A DNA stretch of 64,000 nucleotides from Thioalkalivibrio paradoxus ARh 1 (GTDB lineage Bacteria > Pseudomonadota > Gammaproteobacteria > Ectothiorhodospirales > Ectothiorhodospiraceae). Each line of letters begins with the position of its first letter. The stretch's first letter is position 1. The stretch is from positions 780,501 to 844,500 of the forward strand of contig NZ_CP007029.1 in assembly GCF_000227685.2 (NCBI RefSeq). The letters run 5' to 3'. A program made the translations under genes and the position numbers. Below, one piece after another: positions 2,198-60,798 of this stretch. The notes beneath the pieces are model-generated. The model was not told where the DNA came from, made no database searches, and saw only the letters and a list, made by a program, of their open reading frames with translations.

Positions 2198-5100
2198 TCA
2201 CGACGCTCCTGACGGCGGAACGCAAGTGGGCTCGACTGCGCTCATGCTCTCAGCCTGCAGCAAAAAAATACGCACCGCGGCGAGTTCCATTGTTTGGTCA
2301 TTCGCCTGTCCGGCAAGTGCAAGATGGGCATTCAGGCTGAGCGGCTGGGTAACGGGGTGCCCGGCCGTTGCAGACTCAAACTCACGGGCAATCTGGTCCC
2401 AGGTCTCGTTCAGGTAGTTGCGTGCCCAAGCCAGATGCGCGGAGCCGGTGCTTTCAGCCACCTCAGCGACAAGATCACGATTGTGCTCGAACGACTCAAG
2501 GGCCTGCGAAAACGCCCTTTTTTCTTTGGCGTGCAGATTCTCGAAATCGCGGCAGGACAATATCCCTGATAACTGATTGCAGGCCGCCAACGCTTCGTCA
2601 AATCTGTCCACGATTTGAGACGAAAAGAACGGGCGGTTAATGTGTTCCTTCCAGGCCTCCGCAAAGTCATGATCAGGCAGCGGTGTATGTGACGACGGAA
2701 GGAGAGCCAAGGTTGGCAATACATAGCCATTGATGACCGGTACCACTCTAAATCGCCAGTCGTTTTCAAGATGACGCTGTCCCATCGCCAGAGCGTCTTC
2801 GATATACTGTGCGTCCGCCTCAAAATCTGTTATTTCAATAAGAACGGCGACTTCCCGGGCTGGCCAGTACACGCTGTCCGCCTCGTTAACCGGGCGGGAC
2901 CAACACCGCGCATTCCAGCCTTTCTGCTTGAGCGTACCTTCCAGGGCTCGCAGCCTCCTGTGAAACCGCTGATCGGCAAGTGATCGGCATCGGAGGGCGG
3001 CCGCATGGATTGCTTTGCCTAAGTTGCCATTACGCGCCGCCTTGACAATCCCCTGAGTTGACGGCTGTCCACCGTCATGCGCCATTTCATGCAATATGCA
3101 GGCAATGTCGCCAAGGCGCTTTGCTAAAGCGTCAAGTTCACGCAGTGGCGGCTCTGCACATGTCCGCCATATTGTCGAACGCCCATGCTCACGCGCTTGT
3201 GCTGCTAGGGTCCCCGCGAAGGTGGCAGGACCCTTGGCGCGCTCTTCACTGGGAATTCTGCTCATTCGACTTAATAGATTCCCGAGCACACCGGTCAGAA
3301 GCGCCCCGAGAGACTCATCGTTTCCGGCACCCTGCGCCGGCGTCGTCATCTCCGATGTGGGCGTCTCGGGTGCAGCGTAAGAAAGTGCGTTTACCGCCTG
3401 GACAATTTCATTGATTTCAACAGTCAGCGAGTCCGCGTTCGAAATGCTCTTACCTTTGATCCATTTCTCAGTGAAGAATCGAAAGACCTTCTCGGTGCGC
3501 CTTACCAGTTCGGCCATTTTCCGAGCATAGTCGGTAAGGCTTTCCGAAGCTGATCGGGCGAGCAGGATTTGTCGAAAAGCTACATTCCACGCAACGCGGG
3601 TTTTAGCGGGAATGTTATGCCTCGGCATATTCTTTGACCAGGGCCTGTGGTCCCCGACGGTGATGGGCCGACCCTGTGGATTGATCGCGTCCGATGCCGC
3701 CGCCTCCGACTCTGGTGATATGGCGATCAGAGTCTCGCAGATGTTGCACAGGGTCTCATGGGGGTCAAGTTGTTCTTGTTCAGCCACGTAGTACCAATCC
3801 GAACGCACTGTACGTCCATGCGTTCCGTTGGGGTCAATTACCGGCGTGATCACCCAAGGTGTTTGCGACCGAAACCAGCCAAACAGAACCTCCTCGCCAC
3901 CGAACGCTTGTACCAGATTTTCGGCCACATCGGGTCCGACCAGATGGGCGGTGGCCAGCACGGCCGAGACCAGACCAATATCCTGCTCTCCATCGCCAGC
4001 CAAGTCCGGCGAGATCGTGAGCCTCACGGATTCACCCCCGCATATAGGAGCGAGGCATGAGAGGAACTTGTTGACCTGCTGCAGATTCTGGCAGGACGGC
4101 ACAACACTTCCTTTGGGAAGGTGCGCCAAGCAGGCAGGCCGAAGGTCGTCCTTTGGCAAGGCGCGGAACGCAAGAACAGCGTTTCGAATGCCTTGCCACT
4201 GCTCAAATTGCGAAAGATCGGGAATGTCGATGTGCGGGTCGGAAAACATCGACGCTAGAGACCACTGAGCACGCTGGACTCCGTGCCTTTCAAGCAGCTT
4301 CATGAACAAAATTACGCAACGTTCCACTGTCGCCAGTCCCAACCCGGTGAGGATGGCTACCCATCGATCAACGTCGGAACTGGAATGAAGCATTTCCGCC
4401 AGTCGGCGCAAGGCAGTTCCTTCGTCTTCGTCCCGCACCTTCGCGAGAATCGATTGAACCGCCGTCGGCAAGGTGTCACTGGTCACGGCCGGCAAGCTCT
4501 GCCACAGCGAGTCCGCACTCAACAATGCAGCCTCATCGTGTGATGCGTTGCACAAAGCCTGCGAGCGCAGCATATGAAGCCCGCCCAACACACCGGGACG
4601 GTTTTCTTTCACCAGGTGCTCGTCAATGAGCCGCGAGAGCGCACGACTAGCGTCGTCGGGTTTGATACCGAGCAGCTCGAACAGGTCGCGCGCCTGAACC
4701 TCTGCGCCATGAGCGCAAAGCACGGCAGTGCTTCTTATGATTGCCAGTTCATCATGACGCTTTTGTTGCTGCCGTTGCTGAATCTGTTCGCCAATCACGG
4801 CGGCAAGCCGCTGGCCCTGAGTCAGGACGTGCACATATTCGAGCATAAGGCCTTGAGACTGCTCGTAGGGTTCACGCCAGTGGCTCCAGATTGTCCGTTT
4901 CTCGGCATTGAGCTTTCGCCACACAGCCTCGGCCAGTTTTTCATCAAGACTTACGGGTATGAACTTCGTGTCGGACTTGTTGACGATAAGTGCCACATCC
5001 TCTTGGCGCAAGGAGCCAAGAAAATAGACGGAAGGGACACCCCTTAGTTCGCGGACGAGCACGTTCCACAGGTCACTGTTCGATGAACCAACGTCATCGA

Positions 5101-6088
5101 ATGCCAAACCGATTGGCGAGTTTTCGGTTGGGCGGCGGGCCCGCACAAAGCGAATAATGGAATCAGCGTCGGCGAACGAGGCTCTCGGGTTGATCTGGTA
5201 CCACCTGAGTTCACCAGAGAGAAATTTGGCACACAGCCACATAACCGCTGACTTACCAGCGCCGGACGGACCCGATACGAGAACATGCCGTTGCCGCCTA
5301 AGCGTGCGGATAACGCTACCCGTATCGTCCGGGCGGTCTAGTACGAGCCCTGCAGCGATGTGCCCCGGCCTGACCTTTACACCCTGATAGAATGCAGGCT
5401 CGCTAATGGGATTCTCAAATTCGACCGGTTCGATAACGCCGGAAGCCATGGCGCGATTTATCGCTGAAGGATCTTCAGCCTCCAAACGTTCAAGGATGCG
5501 CCGTTCGACCTCGGTGGTGGAGATCCGCCGCCTTTTTTCAAAGGGCAAGAATCCGTTGGCCTGAGACGCGTCGGCAACCAGTCTGTAAAGGTCGCTGACA
5601 ATGCCATCGGCAATGACTTCCGCTGTGCCAAGCTCTCGCGAAAGCACCTTTACACATTCCTCGCCCGGCCGTGCACAGGCAATTACGGAACGGGCTCTGC
5701 CTGTGAAGAGCTGGTCGATGCTGGCCTCATTGTAGTCGGTTCGCGGATTCTCAAGAACAACGGCAGTGGATTTTTCTTTCGTACCTTTGACTGCTGCGGC
5801 CTTAGCATGAGTGGCTACCAGGATCGCATGCACTTCGGTGCTGCTGAATGTGCTTTCTTTACGCGATTTTATTTGAATCCATATGTCGCGGCCCGCAAGC
5901 TCAACGACGCAGTCCTCTAATCCCTCAGGAACGAGGAAACCAGACGGCGCCAGGCCGGCCCACTGACGTATGAGAATAAGGGTTGAAATCAGGTGTTGGT
6001 AGTGAAAACCGCGCCCCGCCCAAGCGCCGGAACGCGATGCTTTCCAGGCTTGAATCGTACCGTTTTCGGGCTGGCCCTCTGTGCTCAT
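2198..6088 (-). CDS. PD-(D/E)XK nuclease-STAND NTPase, putative antiphage defence protein
   Basis: A 1296-residue protein. Residues ~20-75 carry a Cap4-like nuclease signature: G-R-G-F-H-Y-Q-H, then P-E-G-L-E-D around 55-60, then I-Q-I-K around 71-74 (the E...E-D...Q-x-K catalytic pattern). A P-loop (S-G-P-S-G-A-G-K-S, ~272-280), a Walker B-like strand (I-G-L-A-F-D-D-V, ~326-333) and an arginine after a short strand (G-S-L-R-Q-E-D, ~358-364) mark a STAND/AAA NTPase. The remaining ~900 residues are helical without clear motifs, a likely sensor. Nuclease-STAND fusions of this kind act in abortive antiphage immunity (Avs-like families); assigning this one to them is inference. It stands alone with no operon partner, is AT-richer than the core genes, and sits between toxin-antitoxin debris and an IS91 element. 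The start is the ATG at 6088, followed by a short charged leader. Confidence 0.75.
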   Translation of the reverse strand: MSTEGQPENGTIQAWKASRSGAWAGRGFHYQHLISTLILIRQWAGLAPSGFLVPEGLEDCVVELAGRDIWIQIKSRKESTFSSTEVHAILVATHAKAAAVKGTKEKSTAVVLENPRTDYNEASIDQLFTGRARSVIACARPGEECVKVLSRELGTAEVIADGIVSDLYRLVADASQANGFLPFEKRRRISTTEVERRILERLEAEDPSAINRAMASGVIEPVEFENPISEPAFYQGVKVRPGHIAAGLVLDRPDDTGSVIRTLRRQRHVLVSGPSGAGKSAVMWLCAKFLSGELRWYQINPRASFADADSIIRFVRARRPTENSPIGLAFDDVGSSNSDLWNVLVRELRGVPSVYFLGSLRQEDVALIVNKSDTKFIPVSLDEKLAEAVWRKLNAEKRTIWSHWREPYEQSQGLMLEYVHVLTQGQRLAAVIGEQIQQRQQQKRHDELAIIRSTAVLCAHGAEVQARDLFELLGIKPDDASRALSRLIDEHLVKENRPGVLGGLHMLRSQALCNASHDEAALLSADSLWQSLPAVTSDTLPTAVQSILAKVRDEDEGTALRRLAEMLHSSSDVDRWVAILTGLGLATVERCVILFMKLLERHGVQRAQWSLASMFSDPHIDIPDLSQFEQWQGIRNAVLAFRALPKDDLRPACLAHLPKGSVVPSCQNLQQVNKFLSCLAPICGGESVRLTISPDLAGDGEQDIGLVSAVLATAHLVGPDVAENLVQAFGGEEVLFGWFRSQTPWVITPVIDPNGTHGRTVRSDWYYVAEQEQLDPHETLCNICETLIAISPESEAAASDAINPQGRPITVGDHRPWSKNMPRHNIPAKTRVAWNVAFRQILLARSASESLTDYARKMAELVRRTEKVFRFFTEKWIKGKSISNADSLTVEINEIVQAVNALSYAAPETPTSEMTTPAQGAGNDESLGALLTGVLGNLLSRMSRIPSEERAKGPATFAGTLAAQAREHGRSTIWRTCAEPPLRELDALAKRLGDIACILHEMAHDGGQPSTQGIVKAARNGNLGKAIHAAALRCRSLADQRFHRRLRALEGTLKQKGWNARCWSRPVNEADSVYWPAREVAVLIEITDFEADAQYIEDALAMGQRHLENDWRFRVVPVINGYVLPTLALLPSSHTPLPDHDFAEAWKEHINRPFFSSQIVDRFDEALAACNQLSGILSCRDFENLHAKEKRAFSQALESFEHNRDLVAEVAESTGSAHLAWARNYLNETWDQIAREFESATAGHPVTQPLSLNAHLALAGQANDQTMELAAVRIFLLQAESMSAVEPTCVPPSGAS

Positions 6089-43831: not shown

Positions 43832-43905
43832 TGGGGGATCGTCTAGCGGTAGGACTACGGACTCTGACTCCGTCAACCCAGGTTCGAATCCTGGTCCCCC
43901 AGCCA
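43832..43905 (+). tRNA. tRNA-Gln (CUG)
   Basis: Cloverleaf: acceptor TGGGGGA / TCCCCCA, anticodon stem ACGGA with loop CTCTGAC (anticodon CTG) and TCCGT, T-arm CCAGG-TTCGAAT-CCTGG, discriminator G and encoded CCA. 74 bases with CCA. A 107-bp duplication starts inside its T-arm. Confidence 0.95.
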
Positions 43906-43993
43906 ACATGCAGAAGGCCCCCTCGCGGGGCCTTCTGCATGTTGATCGAGCACGGCCAGGGTTCGAACCTGCAAGGTTCGACGCGCGAGGCGC
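43887..43993 (+). repeat. 107-bp direct repeat, copy 1 (tRNA-Gln 3' end)
   Basis: This segment starts in the T-arm of tRNA-Gln and includes its CCA end. It then has an 18-bp perfect hairpin (43904-43944, loop CTCGC) and a segment with two GGTTCGA motifs. It is repeated identically at 44054-44160, 167 bases later. The hairpin begins on the last bases of CCA and may be the tRNA transcript terminator or processing structure. Confidence 0.9.
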
Positions 43994-44053: not shown

Positions 44054-44160
44054 AATCCTGGTCCCCCAGCCAACATGCAGAAGGCCCCCTCGCGGGGCCT
44101 TCTGCATGTTGATCGAGCACGGCCAGGGTTCGAACCTGCAAGGTTCGACGCGCGAGGCGC
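44054..44160 (+). repeat. 107-bp direct repeat, copy 2
   Basis: Identical to 43887-43993, including the partial tRNA-Gln 3' end and the 18-bp hairpin (44071-44111), but with no tRNA 5' part. The 60 bases between the copies contain another GC-rich palindrome (CAGCGCCGC/GCGGCGCTG). The GGDEF/EAL gene starts 18 bases later. Confidence 0.9.
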
Positions 44161-46329: not shown

Positions 46330-47566
46330 CGGTCTCGTGCGGGTCGGCCTCGGTGCGCGGGTCGATTTCGGCGGCGACCACGCTGGTGCGCGTGAGCGGA
46401 ACGAACTCGGTCATCTCGGGCCGCGGCACCGGGGGCTCGCGGCGCAGCTCCAAGGCCACGAAGATGATGAAGATCAGCAGCACGCCGGCGAATGCGAGCG
46501 GCAGTACTGACGCAGAGGTCACGAACAGGATCACGCCAGCGAGTATCGGGCCGACCGCGGCCCCGATGCCGTTCATCAACAACAGGCCGCGGGTGGCCTC
46601 GAGCGCGTCGGAGGCCTCCAGCCGGTCATAGGTCTGGGCGACGCTGAGTGCGTACAGCGAGAACGCGAAGCCGCCCCAGAGCAGCGCCAGGGCAACGATC
46701 AGGCCCGGCGGGTATCCGATCGCCAGGTAGATCCCGACCGAACCCAGTGCGGTCGCGGCCGATACCACGATCAGCGCCTTGCGCCGGTCGCGCCGGTCGC
46801 TGGCATGGCCGATCGGGTACTGCAGCATGGCCCCGCCAAAGATGGCCGCGCTCAGGAACAGCGCGACCCCGGTATCGGCGAGGCCGACCTCGCGGGCGAA
46901 TACCGCGGCCAGCCCCCAGAAGGCGCCGGTGACCAGGCCCGATACCCCGGCCCCGACCGTGCCTACCGGCGCACGCCGGTAGAGATCCCGCAGCGGCAGC
47001 CGAGCCGTCTGGATCGGAACCGGCTGGGTGACGGGCGTCAGCGCGATGGGCACCAATCCCAGCGCGAACAGGATGGCGACCAGCATGAAGCTCTGGACCA
47101 TTTCCGGGCCGTAGACCAGCAGCAGGAACTGGCCGCCGCCCAGTGCGAGCAGGCTGACCGTCATGTAGATCGCGAACACCTGCCCGCGTTTCTCGACCAC
47201 CTGCTCGTTCAGCCAGCTCTCGATCACCATGTAGGTGCCCAGCAGGCTGATCCCGTTGATCAGCCGCAGCACCCACCAGACGACCGGATCGACCCAGAGA
47301 CCGTGGACCAGTGCCGCCACCGCGGAAACCGCCGCCAGCGCGGCGAAACTGCGGATGTGGCCGACGCGTCCGATCAGCCTTGGAATCAGCCACGTGCCGA
47401 CGATGTAGCCGAGAAAAAAGGCCGACATCACCAGGCCGATGGTGAGCTCGGAGAAACCTTCCGACGCCGCGCGCAGGCCGAGTAGGGTGCCGATGAGTCC
47501 GGAGCCCATCAGCAGGATGCTCATGCCGAGCAGCAGGCTGAACACGGAGCGTACGGTGGAGCCCAT
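46280..47566 (-). CDS. MFS transporter (YcaD-like)
   Basis: A 428-residue transporter with twelve predicted membrane helices. The opening is L-L-L-G-M-S-I-L-L-M-G-S-G-L-I-G-T-L-L-G-L-R, with the family signature M-S-A-F-F-L-G-Y-I-V-G-T and D-R-R-D-R-R-K-A in the central loop. The substrate is unknown. The C-terminus is acidic. The start M-G-S-T-V-R at 47566 is chosen; the long upstream frame runs antisense through metZ. The 3' end overlaps the GGDEF-EAL gene by 50 bases. Divergent from metZ. Confidence 0.88.
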   Translation of the reverse strand: MGSTVRSVFSLLLGMSILLMGSGLIGTLLGLRAASEGFSELTIGLVMSAFFLGYIVGTWLIPRLIGRVGHIRSFAALAAVSAVAALVHGLWVDPVVWWVLRLINGISLLGTYMVIESWLNEQVVEKRGQVFAIYMTVSLLALGGGQFLLLVYGPEMVQSFMLVAILFALGLVPIALTPVTQPVPIQTARLPLRDLYRRAPVGTVGAGVSGLVTGAFWGLAAVFAREVGLADTGVALFLSAAIFGGAMLQYPIGHASDRRDRRKALIVVSAATALGSVGIYLAIGYPPGLIVALALLWGGFAFSLYALSVAQTYDRLEASDALEATRGLLLMNGIGAAVGPILAGVILFVTSASVLPLAFAGVLLIFIIFVALELRREPPVPRPEMTEFVPLTRTSVVAAEIDPRTEADPHETVTLHPGEDADPLEPRH

Positions 47567-47684
47567 GGCGCGCGGGTCCGGAGCCTTTGGGGTGGGAATG
47601 CCAGAGGCAGTATAGTGTAGCCAATCCCGATGTACGGCCCCGGCGCTATCCAGCGTCGCTACCGAGCGAGACCGCGGAACCCCG

Positions 47685-48878
47685 ATGCAGGAATTCGACC
47701 CGACCGAGTACGCCCCCGAGACCGTCGCCGTGCGCGCCGGGTATCGCCGCACCGCCGAGGGCGAGCACTCCGAGGCGATTTTCCCCACCTCGAGCTTCGT
47801 GTTTGGCAGTGCCGCCGAGGCTGCGGCGCGGTTTTCCGGCGAACAGCCGGGCAACATCTACTCGCGTTTCACCAACCCCACCGTCCGGACTTTCGAACAG
47901 CGCCTCGCTGCGATGGAAGGGGGCGAGGCCTGCGTGGCCACCGCCTCCGGCATGGCAGCGATTTTGGCCAGTTTCATGGGCCTGCTGCGCGGGGGCGATC
48001 ACGTGGTTTGCTCGCGCTCGGTGTTCGGGACCACCACCGTGCTGCTGAACCAGTACCTGGCACGTTTCGGCGTTGAAGTGACCTATGTGCCGCTGTCGGA
48101 CCTCGATGCCTGGTCCTCAGCGACGCGCGCGAACACCCGGCTGTATTTCTGCGAGACGCCGTCGAACCCGCTGGGTGAACTGGTGGATATCCGCGCGCTC
48201 GCGGCGATCGCGCGCTCCCGCGGGGTGTTGCTGGCGGTCGATAACTGCTTTTGCACGCCTGCGCTCCAGCGCCCGCTGTCCCTGGGCGCGGACCTGGTCA
48301 TCCACTCGGCGACCAAGTTCCTCGACGGGCAGGGGCGCTGCATGGGGGGCGCTGTCGTCGGCGACTCCGAGCGGGTTGGCAAGGATGTCTACGGCTTCCT
48401 GCGCAGCGCGGGGCCGACACTGGCGCCGTTCAACGCCTGGGTGTTCCTGAAGGGGCTCGAGACGCTGCACCTGCGCATGCGCGCGCACAGCGACAACGCG
48501 CTGGCGCTCGCGCGCTGGCTGAGTGCGCACCCGGCGGTGACCGCGGCGCACTATCCCGGGCTCGAGGACCATCCGCAGCACGCGCTGGCCAGAGCCCAGC
48601 AGCAGGGGTTCGGCGGCGTCCTGAGTTTCGAGGTCGCGGGCGGGCGTGCCGCGGCCTGGTCGGTGATCGATGCGACCCGCATGCTGTCGATCACCGCGAA
48701 CCTCGGCGATGCCAAGAGCACCATCACCCATCCGGCCACCACCACCCACGGCCGACTGGAACCGGCCCAACGCGAGGCCCAGGGGATTACCGAAGGCCTG
48801 GTGCGGGTGGCCGTGGGTCTGGAAGCCGTGGCGGACGTGCAGGCGGATCTGGCCCGGGGACTGGACCGCCTGGTGTGA
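47685..48878 (+). CDS. metZ: O-succinylhomoserine sulfhydrylase
   Basis: A 397-residue Cys/Met-metabolism PLP enzyme making homocysteine from O-succinylhomoserine and sulfide. Marks: P-T-S-S-F-V-F, Y-S-R-F-T-N-P-T-V, S-G-M-A-A-I-L-A, D-N-C-F-C-T-P, and the PLP lysine in H-S-A-T-K-F-L-D-G-Q-G-R-C-M-G-G. The pattern fits MetZ rather than MetB or MetY. The stop overlaps the start of the next gene (GTGA). Confidence 0.93.
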   Translation: MQEFDPTEYAPETVAVRAGYRRTAEGEHSEAIFPTSSFVFGSAAEAAARFSGEQPGNIYSRFTNPTVRTFEQRLAAMEGGEACVATASGMAAILASFMGLLRGGDHVVCSRSVFGTTTVLLNQYLARFGVEVTYVPLSDLDAWSSATRANTRLYFCETPSNPLGELVDIRALAAIARSRGVLLAVDNCFCTPALQRPLSLGADLVIHSATKFLDGQGRCMGGAVVGDSERVGKDVYGFLRSAGPTLAPFNAWVFLKGLETLHLRMRAHSDNALALARWLSAHPAVTAAHYPGLEDHPQHALARAQQQGFGGVLSFEVAGGRAAAWSVIDATRMLSITANLGDAKSTITHPATTTHGRLEPAQREAQGITEGLVRVAVGLEAVADVQADLARGLDRLV

Positions 48879-51046
48879 CCGGCGCGGAGCCGCTGCCCGG
48901 CTGGTATCGCGCCGCGGTGGCGGCGGTGCACGGCGCGGATGCCGTGCGCGCGGCGCTGGCCCACGAAGCACCACCAGCGCGCCCGGTGCACGTGCTGGCC
49001 TGGGGCAAGGCCGCGGACGCGATGCTGCGGGGCGCGGCAAGCGGCTGGCCCGGGCGGATCGCCCGGGCCCTGGTCGTTGCGCCGGCCGGCACGCCGGACC
49101 CGAGCGCCGACCTCGAGTTTCCGGTGCAGCGCCAGCCCGGCGATCACCCGGTACCCGCAGCGGCGAGCTTTGCCGCCGGCGAGGCGGTGGCGGCGTTTCT
49201 ACGCACGGTTCCAGCCGGCGACGCGCTGCTGGTGCTGCTCTCGGGTGGTGCCTCCAGCCTCGCGGAACTCCCGCGCGAGGGGGTCGATCCGCAATGGCTG
49301 GCCGAGATCAACGACCGCCTTCTGGGCGCTGGGCTGGAGATCCGGGCCATGAATCGGCTGCGCTCCCGCCTGTCGCAGCTGAAGGCGGGCGGGGCGCTGG
49401 CTTTCTGCCGCACCGATGACATCCGCGTGCTGGTGATCAGCGACATCCCGGGGGATGCGCTGGCCAGCATCGGATCCGGCCCGTTCTGGCCGCCGGATCC
49501 CTCTGAACCCCGGGAACCCCCGGCCACCGGGTGGCCCGATCTGGACCGCCAGCTGCGTGTTCTCCCGCTGCCGCCTGCGGCCCGGCGCCCGCCGCATCGA
49601 TGCGTGGCCGGCAATGCTGATGCCCGCACCGCCCTGCTCGCGGCGGCGGCGCGCGACGGGCTGCCAGGCCGGGACCACGGCCTGTTCCCCGACAAAACAG
49701 GGCCTTGGCTGGCCGCCGAACTGGTTCGGCGGCTGCGGCATGGGCCGGCCGGGGTGCATGTCTGGGGAGGCGAGGTACCGGTTCGGCTCCCCGCACGCCC
49801 GGGCCGCGGCGGCCGGGCACGCCACCTCGCGGCGGAATTGCTGCTGCTCTGGGCCGCGCGGGGCTGGCCGCGGCCGCTGGCGGTGCTGGCGGGGGCGACC
49901 GATGGCGCCGACGGCGACGGCGCGGCAGCCGGTGCATGGTTCGGTGATGGACACCCTGTCGTCGATGCCGGCACGCGCATGGCTTTGCGCGATGCCCTGC
50001 GCCGCGCCGACACGGGCAGTTTCTGGGACGGGTTGGGGCAAACGTTGCCCGGGAATGCAACCGGAACGAACGTGATGGATCTGCTGGTCGTTCGATTGGG
50101 GCCCGAGTCCGTCGTTCCCGATGCGCGGGCGCGGAGCGACGACCGTGCAGATGCGACCGCTCCCCGCGACGGTGGAGCGCCCGTGCCGGAACCCGGAGTC
50201 GTGGCGCCGGTCCCGGGTGCCCGGCGGTTGCGCGGGCGGACGCCCGGCGTGCACGCGATGGCGTTGAGGGCGTTGCGGGTGCGCGACCCTGAACACAAGT
50301 GCGAATGCGCCAATCGGCTGCTCGAAGCCTGGCGCGCGGGCGATCTGCAGCTGCGGGACGACGATCCGCCTGCGGAACGCATCGAGATCCCTGGCCGCCC
50401 TGCGCGGCCGGCGCTGGTGCGGCCGCAGGAGCTGCCGCGGCGCGGCCTGCACACCGAACGCGGGCGCCAGGCCTTGCTGCACGCGATCGCGCATATCGAG
50501 TTCAACGCGATCAACCTCGCGCTGGACGCGGTCTACCGGTTCAGGGGTTTGCCTGCGGAATTCGTCAGCGACTGGCTCCAGGTCGCCGCGGAGGAGGCGA
50601 GGCACTTTCGCCTGTTGTCCCGGAGGCTCGAGGAATCCGGCTGCGACTACGGCAGCTTTGCCGCGCACAACGGGTTGTGGGAGATGGCGGTGAAGACCGA
50701 CGCCGATGCGATGCAGCGCATGGCGCTGGTGCCGCGTGTACTCGAGGCTCGGGGGCTGGACGTGACTCCGGGGATGATCCGCCGTCTCGACGCCGCTGGG
50801 GATACCGCGAGCGTGGCGGTACTGGAGGTGATTCAGCGCGAGGAGGTGGGCCATGTCGCGATCGGGTCGCACTGGTTCCGCTTTCTGGCGCGCCAGCGCG
50901 GGTTGGACCCGGAAGCGACCTTTCTGGACCTGCTGGCGCGTTACATGCCCGGGCGGGTGCGCCCGCCGTTTGCGCTGGAAGCGCGCCTCGCAGCGGGCTT
51001 CAGCCGGCGCGAAATGGAAGCGCTGGCGGGTCAGGCGGGCGAGTAG
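48875..51046 (+). CDS. DUF4147 glycerate kinase-like/DUF455 ferritin-like fusion protein
   Basis: A 723-residue protein read in one frame from GTG 48875, which overlaps the metZ stop. Residues 1-~410 resemble glycerate 2-kinase of the DUF4147/MOFRL type: V-L-A-W-G-K-A-A-D-A-M, G-D-H-P-V-P, L-L-S-G-G-A-S-S-L, V-I-S-D-I-P-G-D, then the MOFRL part A-G-A-T-D-G-A-D-G. After a charged, proline-rich linker, residues ~460-720 form a DUF455 ferritin-like domain (I-A-H-I-E-F-N-A-I-N-L-A-L-D, then E-E-A-R-H-F, then R-E-E-V-G-H-V-A-I-G-S-H-W). It could be two genes joined, with internal starts for the second, but no stop intervenes. Confidence 0.8.
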   Translation: MTGAEPLPGWYRAAVAAVHGADAVRAALAHEAPPARPVHVLAWGKAADAMLRGAASGWPGRIARALVVAPAGTPDPSADLEFPVQRQPGDHPVPAAASFAAGEAVAAFLRTVPAGDALLVLLSGGASSLAELPREGVDPQWLAEINDRLLGAGLEIRAMNRLRSRLSQLKAGGALAFCRTDDIRVLVISDIPGDALASIGSGPFWPPDPSEPREPPATGWPDLDRQLRVLPLPPAARRPPHRCVAGNADARTALLAAAARDGLPGRDHGLFPDKTGPWLAAELVRRLRHGPAGVHVWGGEVPVRLPARPGRGGRARHLAAELLLLWAARGWPRPLAVLAGATDGADGDGAAAGAWFGDGHPVVDAGTRMALRDALRRADTGSFWDGLGQTLPGNATGTNVMDLLVVRLGPESVVPDARARSDDRADATAPRDGGAPVPEPGVVAPVPGARRLRGRTPGVHAMALRALRVRDPEHKCECANRLLEAWRAGDLQLRDDDPPAERIEIPGRPARPALVRPQELPRRGLHTERGRQALLHAIAHIEFNAINLALDAVYRFRGLPAEFVSDWLQVAAEEARHFRLLSRRLEESGCDYGSFAAHNGLWEMAVKTDADAMQRMALVPRVLEARGLDVTPGMIRRLDAAGDTASVAVLEVIQREEVGHVAIGSHWFRFLARQRGLDPEATFLDLLARYMPGRVRPPFALEARLAAGFSRREMEALAGQAGE

Positions 51047-51795
51047 TGGCCGGCCTCCGGCAGGTAGTCCTGCCCGTCGAGCGCCAGCAGCCGGGGGCCG
51101 TGTGCGTCCACCGTGAGATACCCGGGGCGTTCATCCCAGGCGGGCAGCACGCAACGCAGGCAGGGTCGCCCGTCGACCTGCAGCCGGTGGATCGCGGGCC
51201 TGTGAGTGTGGCCGTGGATCAGCAGCGAGACCCCGTGTGCGCGCAGCACCTCGGCCACGGCATCCGGGTGCACATCGGTGATGTCCCGGGCCTTCTGTCG
51301 GCCCGCGTCACGGCTCGCGGCGCGCAGCCGTTCCGCCTCGGCGATGCGCTCGGGTAGCGGGCGCGCCAGAAAGCTCTGCCGCCAGTCGGGCTTGCGCACG
51401 ACCTCGCGAAACCGCAGGTAGTCGACGTCCGCCGTGCACAGGCTGTCGCCGTGCATCAGCAGCGCGGGCCCGCAAGGCAACGGGATGCGCAACTCTTCCG
51501 GCGCAATCCGCATTCCGGCCCGACCGGCATACTCGGTGTCGAGCAGGAAGTCCCGGTTGCCGTGCTGGAAGGTGACCGGCAGCGGCAGACGGGCGAGAAC
51601 GCCCGCGAGCGCCTCGGCCGCTGGAAATCGGGCGTCGTCGCCAATCCAGTACTCGAACAGATCCCCGAGAATGTACAGCGCGGCTGCGGTCCGGGCCGGG
51701 CCGTCGAGGAACGCGAGAAACTGCTCGAAGGTAGGGCTGGGCTCCCGATCCAGGTGCAGGTCGGAAACGACCAGGACCGGGGCATCCGGGCTCAT
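51031..51795 (-). CDS. lpxH: UDP-2,3-diacylglucosamine diphosphatase
   Basis: A 254-residue calcineurin-like phosphoesterase of lipid A synthesis. Metal motifs: [33 protein letters not shown] and H-G-H-T-H-R-P. Its ATG overlaps the cyclophilin stop (ATGA), giving the ppiB-lpxH order known from other gammaproteobacteria. The 3' end overlaps the DUF455 fusion gene by 16 bases. Confidence 0.95.
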
Positions 51796-53722: not shown

Positions 53723-53799
53723 CGGGGTATAGCGCAGTCTGGTAGCGCGCCTGCTTTGGGAGCAGGATGTCGGGGGTTCGAATCCCTCTACCCCGACCA
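53723..53799 (+). tRNA. tRNA-Pro (UGG)
   Basis: Acceptor CGGGGTA / TACCCCG with A and CCA; anticodon arm CCTGC-TTTGGGA-GCAGG (anticodon TGG); T-arm GGGGG-TTCGAAT-CCCTC (one mismatch or wobble). 77 bases. First of four clustered tRNAs. Confidence 0.95.
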
Positions 53800-53815
53800 C
53801 TGCTCCAGGCCATAC

Positions 53816-53892
53816 GCGCTCGTAGCTCAACCGGATAGAGCATCGGCCTTCTAAGCCGACGGTTGCAGGTTCGAGTCCTGCCGGGCGCGCCA
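53816..53892 (+). tRNA. tRNA-Arg (UCU)
   Basis: Acceptor GCGCTCG / CGGGCGC with G and CCA; anticodon arm TCGGC-CTTCTAA-GCCGA (anticodon TCT); T-arm GCAGG-TTCGAGT-CCTGC. 77 bases. Confidence 0.95.
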
Positions 53893-53927
53893 CCGCCCGG
53901 CACGCCGCAACGGTACAGCGAAACGGT

Positions 53928-54004
53928 GGTGACCGTAGCTCAGTTGGTAGAGTCCCGGATTGTGGCTCCGGTTGTCGTGGGTTCGAGTCCCATCGGTCAC
54001 CCCA
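53928..54004 (+). tRNA. tRNA-His (GUG)
   Basis: Acceptor GTGACCG / CGGTCAC with the extra 5' G (53928) opposite discriminator C, diagnostic of tRNA-His; anticodon loop ATTGTGG (GTG); T-arm GTGGG-TTCGAGT-CCCAT; encoded CCA. Confidence 0.94.
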
Positions 54005-54021
54005 CCCCCTTCTAGCCTCTC

Positions 54022-54097
54022 GGGCCGTTAGCTCAATTGGTAGAGCAGTGGACTCTTAATCCATTGGTTGTAGGTTCGATTCCTACACGGCCCACCA
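54022..54097 (+). tRNA. tRNA-Lys (CUU)
   Basis: Acceptor GGGCCGT / ACGGCCC with A and CCA; anticodon arm GTGGA-CTCTTAA-TCCAT (anticodon CTT); T-arm TGTAG-GTTCGATT-CCTACA. 76 bases. Last tRNA before the right accessory region. Confidence 0.94.
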
Positions 54098-55287: not shown

Positions 55288-58200
55288 GTGATAAACGATT
55301 CGTCCAGAAGTCAGTTCGCGACTGATTCGCTCGAGAGCCTCCGCCGCCGCCTGTTGGATCTGACGGCCCGGAACCGGCTCCTGAACTTCACGCATGGCCG
55401 TGCGGGGAACGTCCGTGTCATCGACGAACTGCCGAACGAATTGCACCGGCTGTTGCTCTCGGAGACGGAGCTGCGCTTCTCTGCGGTCCCCGACCCCACG
55501 CGTGAGCAGTTGATCGAGTTCGGGTATCTGCGCAACGACCCCGATACCGGTCTCGACGAGCGTTTGCGCAAGGATCCCACGGCCGCGGAATGGGCCCGCA
55601 CGCTAGGGCTTGCGACCGACTACGAACTGCCGAACCCGCCAGAGGAAGGCCAGCCCGCGGCGAAGCACCGGGACCGGGCGGTGCAGACTCTGATGTTTCC
55701 CGCCGAGATGGAAGCGCGCCTGCGCAAGTTGCGAAACAGCGCGGAAACCGCGATCGAGGAAACCGGCGCGAACATCTGCTACGTCGCATTCGGTTTCCTC
55801 GAATGGTTCGAGAACACAGGCAGCGACAAGGCCCGGTTGGCGCCCCTCCTGCTGGTTCCGGTGCGCATCGACCGGGGTCGGCTGAACGCCGAGAGCGGGA
55901 CCTACAACTACGCGATCTCCTACACCGGCGAAGAGATCCTTCCGAACCTTTCGCTGCGCGAACTGCTGCGCGCCGATTTCGGGCTTGCGCTACCGGAGCT
56001 CGACGAGGACACCCTGCCGGAGGACTACTTCGAGGCGGTCGCGAAGCTGATCCGAACCCCGCAGCCGCGCTGGACAGTGCGCCGGTATGCGACGGTCTCT
56101 TTATTCAATTTCAGCAAGTTGCTGATGTATCTCGATTTGGATCCTCAGCTATGGCCCGAGGAGCGGCCGATCACGTCGCATCCGATCGTCAGCCGATTTT
56201 TCGCCACGCGTACCGACGAAGGCCTCGGCACCGGGTTCGGCGACGAGTACGCGATCGACGAGCTCCCGGACGTCCATCTCAGTTATCCCGTCATCGATGA
56301 TGCCGACAGCTCCCAGCACAGCGCGCTGGTCGACGTGATCGAGGGAAAGAACCTCGTGATCGAAGGCCCTCCGGGTACCGGCAAGTCGCAGACCATCACC
56401 AACCTGATCGCGGCGGCGCTCGCCCAGGGAAAGAAAGTGCTGTTCGTGGCAGAGAAGCTGGCCGCCCTCGAGGTGGTGAAGCGGCGGCTCGACCACGCGG
56501 GGCTGGGCGACTTCTGTCTGGAGCTGCACAGTCACAAGACACAGAAACGCAAGGTGCTCGACGACATCGACGCCCGCCTGGGCAATCAGCGGTCGTACCG
56601 GACACCGCCGAAGATCGACGCGGACATTCGACGTTACGAGGAGTTGAAGGAGGAACTCAAGGCGTACGCGGAGCAGATCAACAGCGAGTGGCGCAGCACC
56701 GGCCTGTCCATTCATCAGCTCCTGATGGGCGCCACGCGCTATCGCGAGGAACTGGGGATCAACCCGGTCACCGTGCATCCCGAGGGCTTCGATGGCGGCA
56801 TGTTCACCGGCGAGATCCAGCGCAAGAGCCTCGACCTGGTGCGCACCCTCGGCGACATGCACCGGCAGGTCGCGGACCAGATCGGCGAGGGTGCGGCGCT
56901 GTACGACCATCCATGGTTCGGTGTCGGCAACCGCGATCTCCAACTCTTCGACACCGATCGTGTCGTCGGGCCGTTGCAAGCCTGGCAGCAGGCATTGGAG
57001 ACGCTCGAAGGTCTGAGTCGGCAGGCCGCCGAGCTGCTGGGGGCCGAGGGCGGCCAGCATTTCGCCCGCTTCGATCAGCTTCGGTCGCTGATCGACGACC
57101 TCGGCGCGCTGCCCGCGTTGCAGGGCGACGAGGTACTGTCGGCACTGCCGCGGCTTCGGGGCGACGCGCTGCAGCGGCTCGAGCGACAGTTGCATCTCGC
57201 GCGTGAGATTCGCCGGATTCGCGCGGAGCTCAGCGATACCGTCCGCCCGGGTGTGCTGGAAAACGCGGAGCTGCAGGAGCGCCTGCAGAGGGTGTGGGCC
57301 GAGTTGCGCGCCCTCGGACTGGACGTCGAGCTGCGCATCGATCACCTGGCTGGGCACCTGAAGGCAGTGGAACAACTCGGCGACCGCCTCAAGCAGGTGG
57401 CGGAACCGATGGTCGAGGTGTCGGTTCGGCTCGGACGCTCGGTTGCGGATCGGGTCCGGCCGACCGAAGGGGGGCTGACCGAGTTTCGGGAGTTCGTCGA
57501 GTTGACGAATCGCATCCGGCCGGCGCTTCTCGGCATGCGCAGCGAGATCTTCGAGGATGATGCACTGGATGACCTGCTGCCCGCGCTGAAGGGCGAGCTG
57601 GATGCTGTGGCGGCCGCGCAGGCCGAACTCGAGCCCCTGTTCGCGCTGGACCGGCTTCCGCCGGTGTCGGATCTGGACGAGATCCGGCGTGGCCTCGCGC
57701 GGACGGGACCCTTGCGCTGGTTCAACGGCGCGTACCGGGGCGCGCGCAGCCGGATCAGGCAACTCGCGGCGGGAGCCGGCATCCGGGTCCGGGATCTGGT
57801 CGGCCACGCGCCGCGCCTCCACGGCTTCGCGGCAACGCGCAACGGGATCGAAGAGAACACCCGGTATCGTCAGACACTCGGCAGCCATTTCGCCGGGACT
57901 GCCACGCCGGTCGACGATCTGATCGAGTTGCGGTCGTGGTACAAGGCCGTACGTCACGAATTCGGGGTCGGTTTCGGACCGAAGGTGGCTCTGGGCGACA
58001 CGCTGCTGCGCCTGGACGCGACCTTGGTCCGGGGTATTCAGTCCCTGGTCCAGCAGGGATTCCTGGACCGGATCGATGATGTCCTCGCGCGGCTTCGGGC
58101 TATCAGGGACGTGTTCCCAGGCGATGCGTCGATCCAGCAGCGCGATGCGCCCCTGATCGGCCCGGAGGCGCCCACGACAGCTCTGGAAAACCGGCTTCGA

Positions 58201-60798
58201 CAGAGTCTGCAGGCGATCGAGGATGGATTGCGGACGGACTCCGAAACCCGCCTCGAGGCGCTGCACGCGGCGGTGGTGGGGCTGGAGAAGCTGCGTACGT
58301 TGACGGATGCCTGGTCGCTGGGGATGATCGATACCGCCTGGTTCGAGGGGCAGATCGAATGGCCCTCCGCGCCCGAACACTTCAGCGAGGACACGCTCGC
58401 GACGCTCGAGCACACCGAGGAACTCGCGCGCGTGCTCGATCAGGGGATCGGCACCGATCTGCTGCGCAGCGCCATCTACCGGCATCCCGACCCCGACTTT
58501 TTTGGCACGCTCTCGGCTTTCCACACCCGGATGCGTGACGGCTGGCAGCAGCACCTGGAGCAACGGGACGCATTCGCCGAGATCACGGAGCTGGATCGCG
58601 ACGCCTGGGAACGCCGCAGCGACGGAACGCTGGCCTGGCTGCAATCGAGAAACCGCCGCGCACTCGAGCATGCGCCGTCGCTGGCCAACTGGGTCGATTA
58701 CGTTCGCGTCCGGCATCAGTGCGAGGTGGCGGGCTTTCGCGGATTGGCGATGGCACTGGAGGCCGGCACGCTCCAGCCGCAGGATGTCGAGCAGGGGTAC
58801 CGGCTCGGAATCTACGACCTGCTTGCCCGCGAGATCCTGAAGGAGATACCGGGTCTCGCGCGCTTTTCGGGCAACGCGCATCTGGCACTGCAGACACGCT
58901 TCCGCGAGTACGACGAGAAGCTGAAGCAGTTGCAACGCCAGCGGATCGCGGCCCGGGTCGCGAAGAACAAGGCGCCCGAGGGATCGTCGGGTGGAAGAGT
59001 CAGCAACTACACGGAACTTGCGCTCCTGCGGCATGAGGTGGGCAAGAAGCGGCGGCACATCCCGCTACGGCAACTGGTGTCACGCGCCGGGAACGCGCTG
59101 GCGGCCTTGAAGCCGTGCTTCATGATGGGGCCGATGTCGGTCGCGCAGTATCTGCCCCGGGGCGAGATCGAATTCGATCTCGTGGTGATGGACGAGGCTT
59201 CGCAGATGAAGCCGGAAGACGCCCTGGGCCCGATTGCGCGGGGTCGTCAGCTCGTGGTGGTCGGCGATCCCAAGCAGCTACCCCCCACCAGCTTCTTCGA
59301 CAAGATGGTCAACGAAGAGGACGAAGACACCACCGCGATCGAGGACTCGGAAAGCATCCTCGACACCGCGATGCCGATCTTTCACGCGCGGCGGCTGACC
59401 TGGCACTACCGCTCGCAGCACGAACACCTGATCGCGTTCTCGAACCACTCGTTCTACGACGGGAAGCTGGTGGTGTTTCCGGCCCCCCACGCAGAGTCCC
59501 CGGAGTTCGGCGTGAAACTCACGCGCGTGCCCCGCGGCCGGTTCGTGAACCGGCGCAACGTCGAGGAAGCGCGGATCATCGCCAGGGCCGTTCAGGCCCA
59601 CATGGTGGAGCGCCCGCAGGAGTCGCTCGGTGTCGTCGCGATGAGCGCGGAGCAGCGCGACCAGATCGAGCGCGCAGTTGAGGATCTGTCGAAAGAAGAC
59701 GCGCGGCTTCGTGACGCCATCGAGGCCCGGCTGGGAACCGAAGAGCCGCTGTTCATCAAGAACCTCGAGAACGTGCAGGGCGACGAGCGCGACGTGATCT
59801 ACATCTCCTGCACCTACGGTCCCGAGGAGGTGGGGGGCAGGGTGTACCAGCGCTTCGGGCCGATCAACTCGGACGTGGGCTGGCGCAGGCTGAACGTCCT
59901 CTTCACCCGTTCGAAGCGACGCATGCAGGTGTTCAGTTCGATGGGTTCGGAAGACATCGTTCTGTCCGAGCGCTCCAAGCGGGGCGTGGTCGCGTTCCGG
60001 GACTTTCTGGCCTTTGCCGAGACCGGTCACCTGCGCCGGGACTTCGGCACCGGCAACACCGCGGACAGCGACTTCGAGATCGCGGTATCGAGCGCGCTCG
60101 CAGCAGCCGGTTTCGAGTGCGTCCCGCAGGTTGGCGTGGCCGGTTTCTTCATCGACCTCGCCGTGCGCGATCCCGGCAACCCCGGCCGGTACCTGATGGG
60201 GATCGAGTGCGATGGAGCCACCTACCACTCCGCGCGATCGGTCCGCGACCGCGATCGACTGCGCCAAGCGGTGCTCGAGCGCCTCGGCTGGCGCATCCGG
60301 CGCATCTGGTCCACGGACTGGTATCGGAACCCTCAGGCCGAACTCGAGCCGATGATCCGGGAGCTGAACGCCCTGAAAACGCCGGTCGTGGACACCACGG
60401 CGGCCCGCGTCGACACTCGTGAACCCGAGCCGGTCGTTCCGCCGCCCTCCGAAATGCAGCTTCGGGAGACCGAGGAGATCGAGCAGATCGTCGAGGAGGA
60501 GGAAGCTCTCGATCGTGGCATCGATCAGGTCGTGCCGTCGGGTCTGAGCCTTCGGGAAAAGCTCATCCGTTTCGACCGGGAGGTCATCCGTGCCGAGCTT
60601 CCCGCCACCGCGGACAATCAGCGCCTGCTCCGGCCGGCGATGATCGAGGCGTTCCTCGAGTACAAGCCCGTCTCGAAGAGCGAATTCCTCGAGATGTTCC
60701 CGCTGTACCTGCGGCAGGCGACCGATACCCGAGAAGCCACGTACCTGGACCGGGTCCTGAAGATCATTGAGGAGTCCGAGGTCGATGCGGAAAGTTGA
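55288..60798 (+). CDS. DUF4011-helicase-Vsr-like nuclease-DUF3320 protein, putative defence system
   Basis: A 1836-residue protein. The N-terminus is DUF4011 (L-R-R-R-L-L-D-L-T-A-R-N-R-L-L-N-F). A superfamily 1 helicase core follows: Walker A G-P-P-G-T-G-K-S-Q-T near residue 360; V-M-D-E-A-S-Q-M and G-D-P-K-Q-L-P-P-T near 1300; W-H-Y-R-S-Q-H; V-Q-G-D-E-R-D; V-L-F-T-R-S. An insert of ~900 residues separates motif I from motif II. Residues ~1594-1685 form a Vsr/DUF559-like nuclease (F-E-x-x-V, I-D-L-A-V, G-I-E-C-D-G), then a DUF3320-like end. This matches single-gene defence proteins (called Hhe in catalogues, from memory). GTG 55288 follows AGGA. No partner genes. Confidence 0.85.
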   Translation: MINDSSRSQFATDSLESLRRRLLDLTARNRLLNFTHGRAGNVRVIDELPNELHRLLLSETELRFSAVPDPTREQLIEFGYLRNDPDTGLDERLRKDPTAAEWARTLGLATDYELPNPPEEGQPAAKHRDRAVQTLMFPAEMEARLRKLRNSAETAIEETGANICYVAFGFLEWFENTGSDKARLAPLLLVPVRIDRGRLNAESGTYNYAISYTGEEILPNLSLRELLRADFGLALPELDEDTLPEDYFEAVAKLIRTPQPRWTVRRYATVSLFNFSKLLMYLDLDPQLWPEERPITSHPIVSRFFATRTDEGLGTGFGDEYAIDELPDVHLSYPVIDDADSSQHSALVDVIEGKNLVIEGPPGTGKSQTITNLIAAALAQGKKVLFVAEKLAALEVVKRRLDHAGLGDFCLELHSHKTQKRKVLDDIDARLGNQRSYRTPPKIDADIRRYEELKEELKAYAEQINSEWRSTGLSIHQLLMGATRYREELGINPVTVHPEGFDGGMFTGEIQRKSLDLVRTLGDMHRQVADQIGEGAALYDHPWFGVGNRDLQLFDTDRVVGPLQAWQQALETLEGLSRQAAELLGAEGGQHFARFDQLRSLIDDLGALPALQGDEVLSALPRLRGDALQRLERQLHLAREIRRIRAELSDTVRPGVLENAELQERLQRVWAELRALGLDVELRIDHLAGHLKAVEQLGDRLKQVAEPMVEVSVRLGRSVADRVRPTEGGLTEFREFVELTNRIRPALLGMRSEIFEDDALDDLLPALKGELDAVAAAQAELEPLFALDRLPPVSDLDEIRRGLARTGPLRWFNGAYRGARSRIRQLAAGAGIRVRDLVGHAPRLHGFAATRNGIEENTRYRQTLGSHFAGTATPVDDLIELRSWYKAVRHEFGVGFGPKVALGDTLLRLDATLVRGIQSLVQQGFLDRIDDVLARLRAIRDVFPGDASIQQRDAPLIGPEAPTTALENRLRQSLQAIEDGLRTDSETRLEALHAAVVGLEKLRTLTDAWSLGMIDTAWFEGQIEWPSAPEHFSEDTLATLEHTEELARVLDQGIGTDLLRSAIYRHPDPDFFGTLSAFHTRMRDGWQQHLEQRDAFAEITELDRDAWERRSDGTLAWLQSRNRRALEHAPSLANWVDYVRVRHQCEVAGFRGLAMALEAGTLQPQDVEQGYRLGIYDLLAREILKEIPGLARFSGNAHLALQTRFREYDEKLKQLQRQRIAARVAKNKAPEGSSGGRVSNYTELALLRHEVGKKRRHIPLRQLVSRAGNALAALKPCFMMGPMSVAQYLPRGEIEFDLVVMDEASQMKPEDALGPIARGRQLVVVGDPKQLPPTSFFDKMVNEEDEDTTAIEDSESILDTAMPIFHARRLTWHYRSQHEHLIAFSNHSFYDGKLVVFPAPHAESPEFGVKLTRVPRGRFVNRRNVEEARIIARAVQAHMVERPQESLGVVAMSAEQRDQIERAVEDLSKEDARLRDAIEARLGTEEPLFIKNLENVQGDERDVIYISCTYGPEEVGGRVYQRFGPINSDVGWRRLNVLFTRSKRRMQVFSSMGSEDIVLSERSKRGVVAFRDFLAFAETGHLRRDFGTGNTADSDFEIAVSSALAAAGFECVPQVGVAGFFIDLAVRDPGNPGRYLMGIECDGATYHSARSVRDRDRLRQAVLERLGWRIRRIWSTDWYRNPQAELEPMIRELNALKTPVVDTTAARVDTREPEPVVPPPSEMQLRETEEIEQIVEEEEALDRGIDQVVPSGLSLREKLIRFDREVIRAELPATADNQRLLRPAMIEAFLEYKPVSKSEFLEMFPLYLRQATDTREATYLDRVLKIIEESEVDAES

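Follow-up and report, generated by a model that had tools for sequence, protein, structure and literature searches.

The glycerate kinases of class I (PF02595) are unrelated to those of class II, which carry the motif D-X(0,2)-G-X(0,1)-D-[GP]-X(4)-[APS]-[ACDGST] (PMC2063504). The reported product of the class II enzymes characterized by 2007 is 2-phosphoglycerate. DUF455 (PF04305) is a widespread family of predicted di-iron proteins, with at least 593 related stretches in one scan. We found no function described for it in the open-access literature, including the accessible parts of PMC6214176 and PMC4520260; H. influenzae HI0077 is called ferritin-like in the accessible part of PMC3877243. 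Here, we analyzed a gene that combines both families and lies in a 64,000-nucleotide stretch of the Thioalkalivibrio paradoxus ARh 1 genome (positions 780,501 to 844,500 of NZ_CP007029.1; hereafter, the window). The glycerate kinase-DUF455 fusion was confirmed as real and as one in-frame gene. Based on the comparisons given below, its product is likely a tethered bifunctional protein, which would have originated by fusion of two neighboring operon genes in one branch of the sulfur-oxidizing genus Thioalkalivibrio and would unite a glycerate kinase with a di-iron enzyme. What is new is the architecture, which is built of known parts. In line with an earlier note on this DNA, no described function for such a pair was found in the open-access literature.

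The open reading frames of the window show a stop-free frame from 48878 to the stop codon at 51044-51046. The GTG start codon (48875-48877) overlaps the TGA stop codon of metZ (48876-48878) in the sequence GTGA, and the automatic extension of the frame upstream to 48251 is an alternative frame inside metZ. The same GTGA overlap was present in 11 further genomes of the genus with readable metZ and kinase genes (L060, L061, L064-L067, and L077-L081). Since no stop and no frameshift was missed in the linker, the fusion stands: DUF4147, MOFRL, and DUF455 are encoded in one protein that joins two unrelated families, and its gene starts within the end of metZ, both as the earlier note had proposed. 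In the whole genome (one contig, 3.76 Mb), there is a single DUF4147 match and a single DUF455 match, both in the fused gene (Table 1). We presume that metZ is the first gene of the operon containing the fused gene; a promoter and terminator scan of positions 47400-51300 gave nothing above chance, and PADLOC gave no match for the fused protein.

Table 1. Features of the metZ-lpxH region in window coordinates; residues of the fused protein are counted without the initiator
Feature	Position	Strand	Remarks
metZ, O-succinylhomoserine sulfhydrylase	47685..48878	+	NF006003 688 bits (cut-off 522), TIGR01325 579 bits (cut-off 510)
Fused gene, putative class II glycerate kinase - linker - DUF455	48875..51046	+	723 amino acids, GTG start
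DUF4147 domain	48905..49504	+	Pfam residues 10-209, E 1.2e-43; catalytic-site positions K44, D189
MOFRL domain	49754..50080	+	Pfam residues 293-401, E 2.1e-17; R313, D342, class II motif
Linker	50093..50242	+	About residues 406-455; rich in D, R, A, and P; predicted disordered; not conserved
DUF455 domain, ferritin-like	50282..51016	+	Pfam residues 469-713, E 1.1e-96
Predicted di-iron ligands of DUF455	E541, E573xxH576, E623, E656xxH659		Conserved across loci
lpxH, convergent neighbor	51031..51795	-	TIGR01854 230 bits (cut-off 190); conserved synteny, outside the fusion

Relatives were searched in 58 genomes, 30 of them from the genus Thioalkalivibrio. DUF4147 was detected in 13 of these 30, and in 11 it was fused to DUF455 (G000, G008, G010, G013, G014, G016, G017, G019, G023, G027, and G028, the fused gene of the latter ending at the contig end). 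Besides the window's own genome, the survey suggested in the earlier note thus revealed ten members of the genus with the fusion, and the relatives do not all keep the genes separate. The distance between the matched domains is 20-58 amino acids (about 50 in the window) and always in frame, and the linker sequences are dissimilar between lineages. The two remaining genomes differ. G015 has the kinase and DUF455 as two separate genes with an ATGA overlap. In G003 (L061, kinase at 4111-5304 on the minus strand), the kinase and linker are followed by a short tail that joins the DUF455 start straight to the DUF455 end; judged against its sister G014, an ancestral fusion seems to have lost the DUF455 core here by an in-frame deletion, although a misassembly is possible.

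A midpoint-rooted tree was constructed from metZ, lpxH, ppi, and folD with 27 of 29 rows (L075 and L092 are without marker genes, and five rows are under half filled). The eight rows of the genus with DUF455 only formed one clade (support 100/100), and the class II rows formed one 13-row clade (99/99) composed of the fused rows, G015 with its separate genes, and G003 with its deletion. G015 was placed beside the window's pair with support of 53/18, which does not fix its position, so that the tree agrees with a single fusion after the branching of G015 as well as with a secondary split of the gene in G015. Because the genes are separate and often neighbors elsewhere, the comparisons identify it as a lineage-specific fusion of old neighboring genes, probably in one event inside Thioalkalivibrio.

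The kinase half scored 149.7 bits with DUF4147 (cut-off 23) and 63.7 bits with MOFRL (cut-off 28.3) in Pfam, the domain content of class II. The domain order is that of the class II glycerate kinases TM1585 (PDB 2b8n) and PH0495 (PDB 1x3l), and residues 342-352 (DGADGDGAAAG) match the class II motif. We take the catalytic-site residues of TM1585 to be K47, D189, R325, and D351. Residues K44, D189, R313, and D342 of the fused protein align to the hand-counted 2b8n chain positions 59, 201, 337, and 363, which equal the native TM1585 numbers if the tag has 12 residues. Compared with these enzymes, the fused kinase is distant (E 6.1e-23 to 2b8n), scores lower than the canonical type, and carries the DUF455 domain as a C-terminal extension. 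Among 54 kinase loci, no readable one had a change at K44, D189, E299, or R313, and the six predicted ligands of DUF455 were present in 154 of 154 DUF455 loci, whereby both sets include duplicates of one genome.

The best evidence for glycerate kinase function came from the distribution of the kinase classes in the genus. Class I was detected in 16 of the 30 genomes, class II in 13, and both in none, while the incomplete G006 had neither; this count covers classes I and II, class III not having been searched. Such an exclusion pattern would be expected if one glycerate kinase had taken the place of another, and it thus supports glycerate kinase function of the fused kinase. In G001, the class I gene has a GntP permease gene and a CDP-alcohol phosphatidyltransferase gene as neighbors, and no family was recognized in the other long frames tested around the class I kinase genes. 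The T. paradoxus genome harbors a glcD-like gene (563.2 bits, just below the cut-off of 567.9) near malate synthase G. For Cupriavidus necator, PMC7486775 describes a glycerate route as well as a malate cycle for the salvage of phosphoglycolate.

The DUF455 half scored 323.7 bits (cut-off 34.3) and covers profile positions 3-246 of 247. Like other proteins of the family, it contains the whole domain and the complete set of predicted ligands E...ExxH...E...ExxH. A predicted model of the domain, with a predicted local distance difference test (pLDDT) value of 95.4, best matched aldehyde-deformylating oxygenase (Z 15.1, root-mean-square deviation 3.0, 183 residues), followed by VlmB (Z 14.6) and MiaE (Z 13.4), with bacterioferritins and others close behind; a family missing from the fold lists is not thereby excluded. 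Aldehyde-deformylating oxygenase, VlmB, and MiaE have the same ligand pattern, and the fold predicted for DUF455 resembles theirs. However, the identity to them is about 10-18% among the matches listed, no common substrate is known, and the likeness is one of fold only. A solved structure of a DUF455 protein was not found by phmmer at E values up to 1, a search that included no profile.

Both domains are under purifying selection, as shown by the pairwise ratios of nonsynonymous to synonymous substitution rates (dN/dS) for eight pairs from ten fused genes, which were 0.22-0.32 for the kinase and 0.08-0.18 for DUF455. For the linker, dN/dS was 0.36-1.34 in the five computable pairs of the eight, two of them based on 14 codons only, which suggests that it is little or not constrained. 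A model of the full protein showed two confident domains, with only residues 414-452, in the linker, under pLDDT 50 (predicted template modeling score, 0.64).

According to the favored reading of a tethered bifunctional protein, the N-terminal half would be the cell's D-glycerate kinase, converting ATP and D-glycerate to 2-phosphoglycerate. The C-terminal half would bind two metal ions via E541, E573xxH576, E623, and E656xxH659 and, in the manner of aldehyde-deformylating oxygenase, VlmB, or MiaE, could activate O2 on a substrate. The presumably disordered linker would tether two domains that fold independently. The main effect of the fusion would be one-to-one production of both halves from a message that the GTGA overlap couples to metZ, and not new chemistry. 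The genus provides a natural experiment, one clade having a class I and the other a class II glycerate kinase, with DUF455 kept in both. For DUF455, the natural fusion and the recurring operon with metZ and a kinase of predictable substrate narrow the choice of assays and provide a one-chain construct.

Several observations weigh against this reading. D342 was found in 51 of 52 readable kinase loci, L111 being without it. The kinase missed the NCBIfam glycerate 2-kinase equivalogs by far (NF041176, 111.6 versus 550 bits; NF040791, 82.3 versus 670 bits), and therefore its substrate could have shifted. Going by their short names, these two models are presumably built on archaeal enzymes, and then the miss bars only its naming as those equivalogs. 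The exclusion of class I and class II may go back to one replacement event, in which case the 30 genomes are not 30 tests. In 36 genomes, no glyoxylate carboligase scored above the cut-off; a role of the kinase in the photorespiratory glycerate pathway was thus not supported. Among the Foldseek matches of the DUF455 model to di-iron oxygenases, none had an E value below 0.029, and no Foldseek match had one of 0.001 or less, so the relation to these enzymes rests on fold and ligands, and helical bundles readily give middling Z scores. Furthermore, two short linkers showed dN/dS of 0.36-0.45 on 14 codons, which makes some constraint on the linker possible. Finally, the internal site at the old DUF455 start of the window's gene pairs better with the anti-Shine-Dalgarno sequence than the gene start does (-5.5 versus -4.3), so an internal start there is possible.

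An alternative explanation is that both domains serve one pathway, in which DUF455 makes or consumes a compound handled by the kinase and the fusion channels this compound. Classically, genes that fuse with a neighbor are taken to share a function. The arrangement of the separate genes in other genera bears on this explanation as well as on the origin of the fusion from neighboring genes. In the sister genus g3, metZ, the kinase gene, and the DUF455 gene were adjacent but separate (3 of 3). Elsewhere in the family, the kinase and DUF455 of G030 lie on different contigs; in G033, the kinase is next to metZ, and no DUF455 was found. In a class sample of 369 Gammaproteobacteria genomes, 232 matched the fused protein and 131 matched DUF4147. 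Among the matches listed, 70 of these genomes besides the window had both families, which were paired by hand. In 28 of the 70, both genes share a strand and the kinase directly precedes DUF455; in the others, the DUF4147 match ended 1.3-4.8 kb upstream (4 genomes), or the kinase was located elsewhere on the contig (8) or on another contig (30, some assemblies being fragmented). The high-scoring canonical kinase type, in contrast, was directly upstream of DUF455 in none of the eight genomes that have it among the matches listed, a difference in favor of one pathway.

Other data argue against one pathway. Of the 16 class I genomes of the genus, in which the class II kinase was not found, 15 retain DUF455 as a stand-alone protein (the surroundings of DUF455 were inspected in 10 of the 15). 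G003 is the reverse case, having retained the kinase and apparently lost DUF455. DUF455 is thus not dependent on the class II kinase, and its occurrence alone in the sister clade together with the apparent loss in G003 shows that the two are separable, which does not support the functional tie considered in the earlier note. In 80 DUF455 loci, the kinase was directly upstream in six (one of them, L135, is the fused G019) and about 3.5 kb off in one, while it was not found by tblastn in the other 73, five of which have less than 1.5 kb of upstream sequence. In L142, L147, L152, and L186, the metZ match starts 1.2-1.3 kb before DUF455, leaving no space for a kinase, and L103 likewise has metZ before DUF455 without such space. 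The linkage of metZ and DUF455 is therefore independent of the kinase: some members of the class keep these two genes together, with the kinase as an optional member. The little constrained and predictedly disordered linker also speaks against channeling. The corresponding claim of a link to methionine and sulfur metabolism reduces to gene order: operon linkage with metZ is seen, in the order metZ, kinase, and DUF455 or, in some species, metZ and then DUF455 without the kinase, and a biochemical link found no support.

Taken together, we consider the one-pathway explanation unlikely. The same applies to a more specific and doubtful version of it. There, DUF455 would be a di-iron enzyme that activates O2, and the divergent class II kinase would take part in processing its substrate or product. 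Both would belong to a metZ-linked operon of many Gammaproteobacteria, with the fusion as the channeling form. If true, this would offer a first handle on the uncharacterized DUF455 family.

According to another explanation, the proteins are fused on paper only: an internal start at V458/M461 would yield a separate DUF455 protein, either alongside the fused one or as the main product, so that two proteins would be the functional units. In favor of it, besides the pairing energy in the window, ten of the 11 fused genes still have GTG at this old DUF455 start. However, the codon is GTA in G014, GTG makes up 38-67% of the Val codons anyway, and the next ATG reads CTG in G013. Across the 11 genes, the pairing energy at this site ranged from -5.5 to +1.9 and was never outlying (percentile 0.23 to 1.00 within the gene), and no conserved Shine-Dalgarno signal was detected there. 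Separate production from this site is therefore improbable.

It is very improbable that one domain is a decaying passenger, be it a dead kinase or a dead DUF455. Of the two domains, the kinase evolves faster (within the genus, 61-64% identity versus 84-88% for metZ; 80% versus 94% for the close relative G010), and DUF455 suffered the apparent deletion in G003. Nevertheless, dN/dS is well under 1 in both domains, the catalytic and ligand residues are kept, and the class II genomes of the genus have no class I glycerate kinase. A sequencing or assembly error that joined two genes can practically be dismissed: the sequence is GC-rich and the domains are separate in all inspected relatives outside the genus, but ten other assemblies carry the fusion in frame with linkers differing in sequence and length.

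Candidates for the same fusion in other genera were rejected. In the inspected relatives outside the genus, DUF455 is a separate protein with frames of mostly 265-315 amino acids, in contrast to the C-terminal part of a 723-amino-acid protein in the window. None of the 24 inspected junctions among the 28 adjacent pairs of the class sample was fused (those of G160, G221, G273, and G388 were outside this inspection, and G273 holds a kinase fragment only). Among the matches listed for 398 genomes sampled across the phylum, only the window's row covered both domains. Stop codon readthrough from the kinase into DUF455 was considered for frames of about 660-770 amino acids, but at the inspected junctions the kinase gene ended in TAA, TAG, or TGA and a start codon followed shortly afterwards; the shared phase of these separate junctions results from how the loci were selected. 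In L118, the two frame starts are 1208 bases apart, which is not a multiple of three and corresponds to a short overlap of separate genes in another phase. Rows extending from DUF455 into the kinase range crossed four and five stops in G126 and G300, respectively, and G055 has a separate kinase gene about 2 kb upstream. A second Pfam domain was not found in the 759-amino-acid DUF455 frame of G048.

Directly downstream of DUF455, several of these loci contain related genes for a protein of about 240-295 amino acids with a signal peptide- or lipoprotein-like start and no Pfam family (L095:2554-3330 [minus strand], L118:3781-4542 [minus strand], L124:5779-6537, L142:8762-9523, L150:8800-9528, L157:8774-9505, L162:3802-4686, and L168:8798-9520). 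In the window, lpxH follows DUF455 instead.

Further features were noted in the window. The plus-strand gene at 55288-60798 encodes a 1,836-amino-acid protein that, for most of its length, matches the anti-phage defense helicase Hhe (1836 bits) and contains DUF4011, helicase motifs, and an MTES_1575 nuclease domain. Positions 43887-43993 and 44054-44160 form a perfect direct duplication of 107 nucleotides, the first copy of which starts in the 3' end of a tRNA-Gln gene (43832-43905). Each copy contains a hairpin-like palindrome of 41 nucleotides that is otherwise absent from the window. On the plus strand, a cluster at 53723-54097 comprises four tRNA genes (Pro, Arg, His, and Lys).

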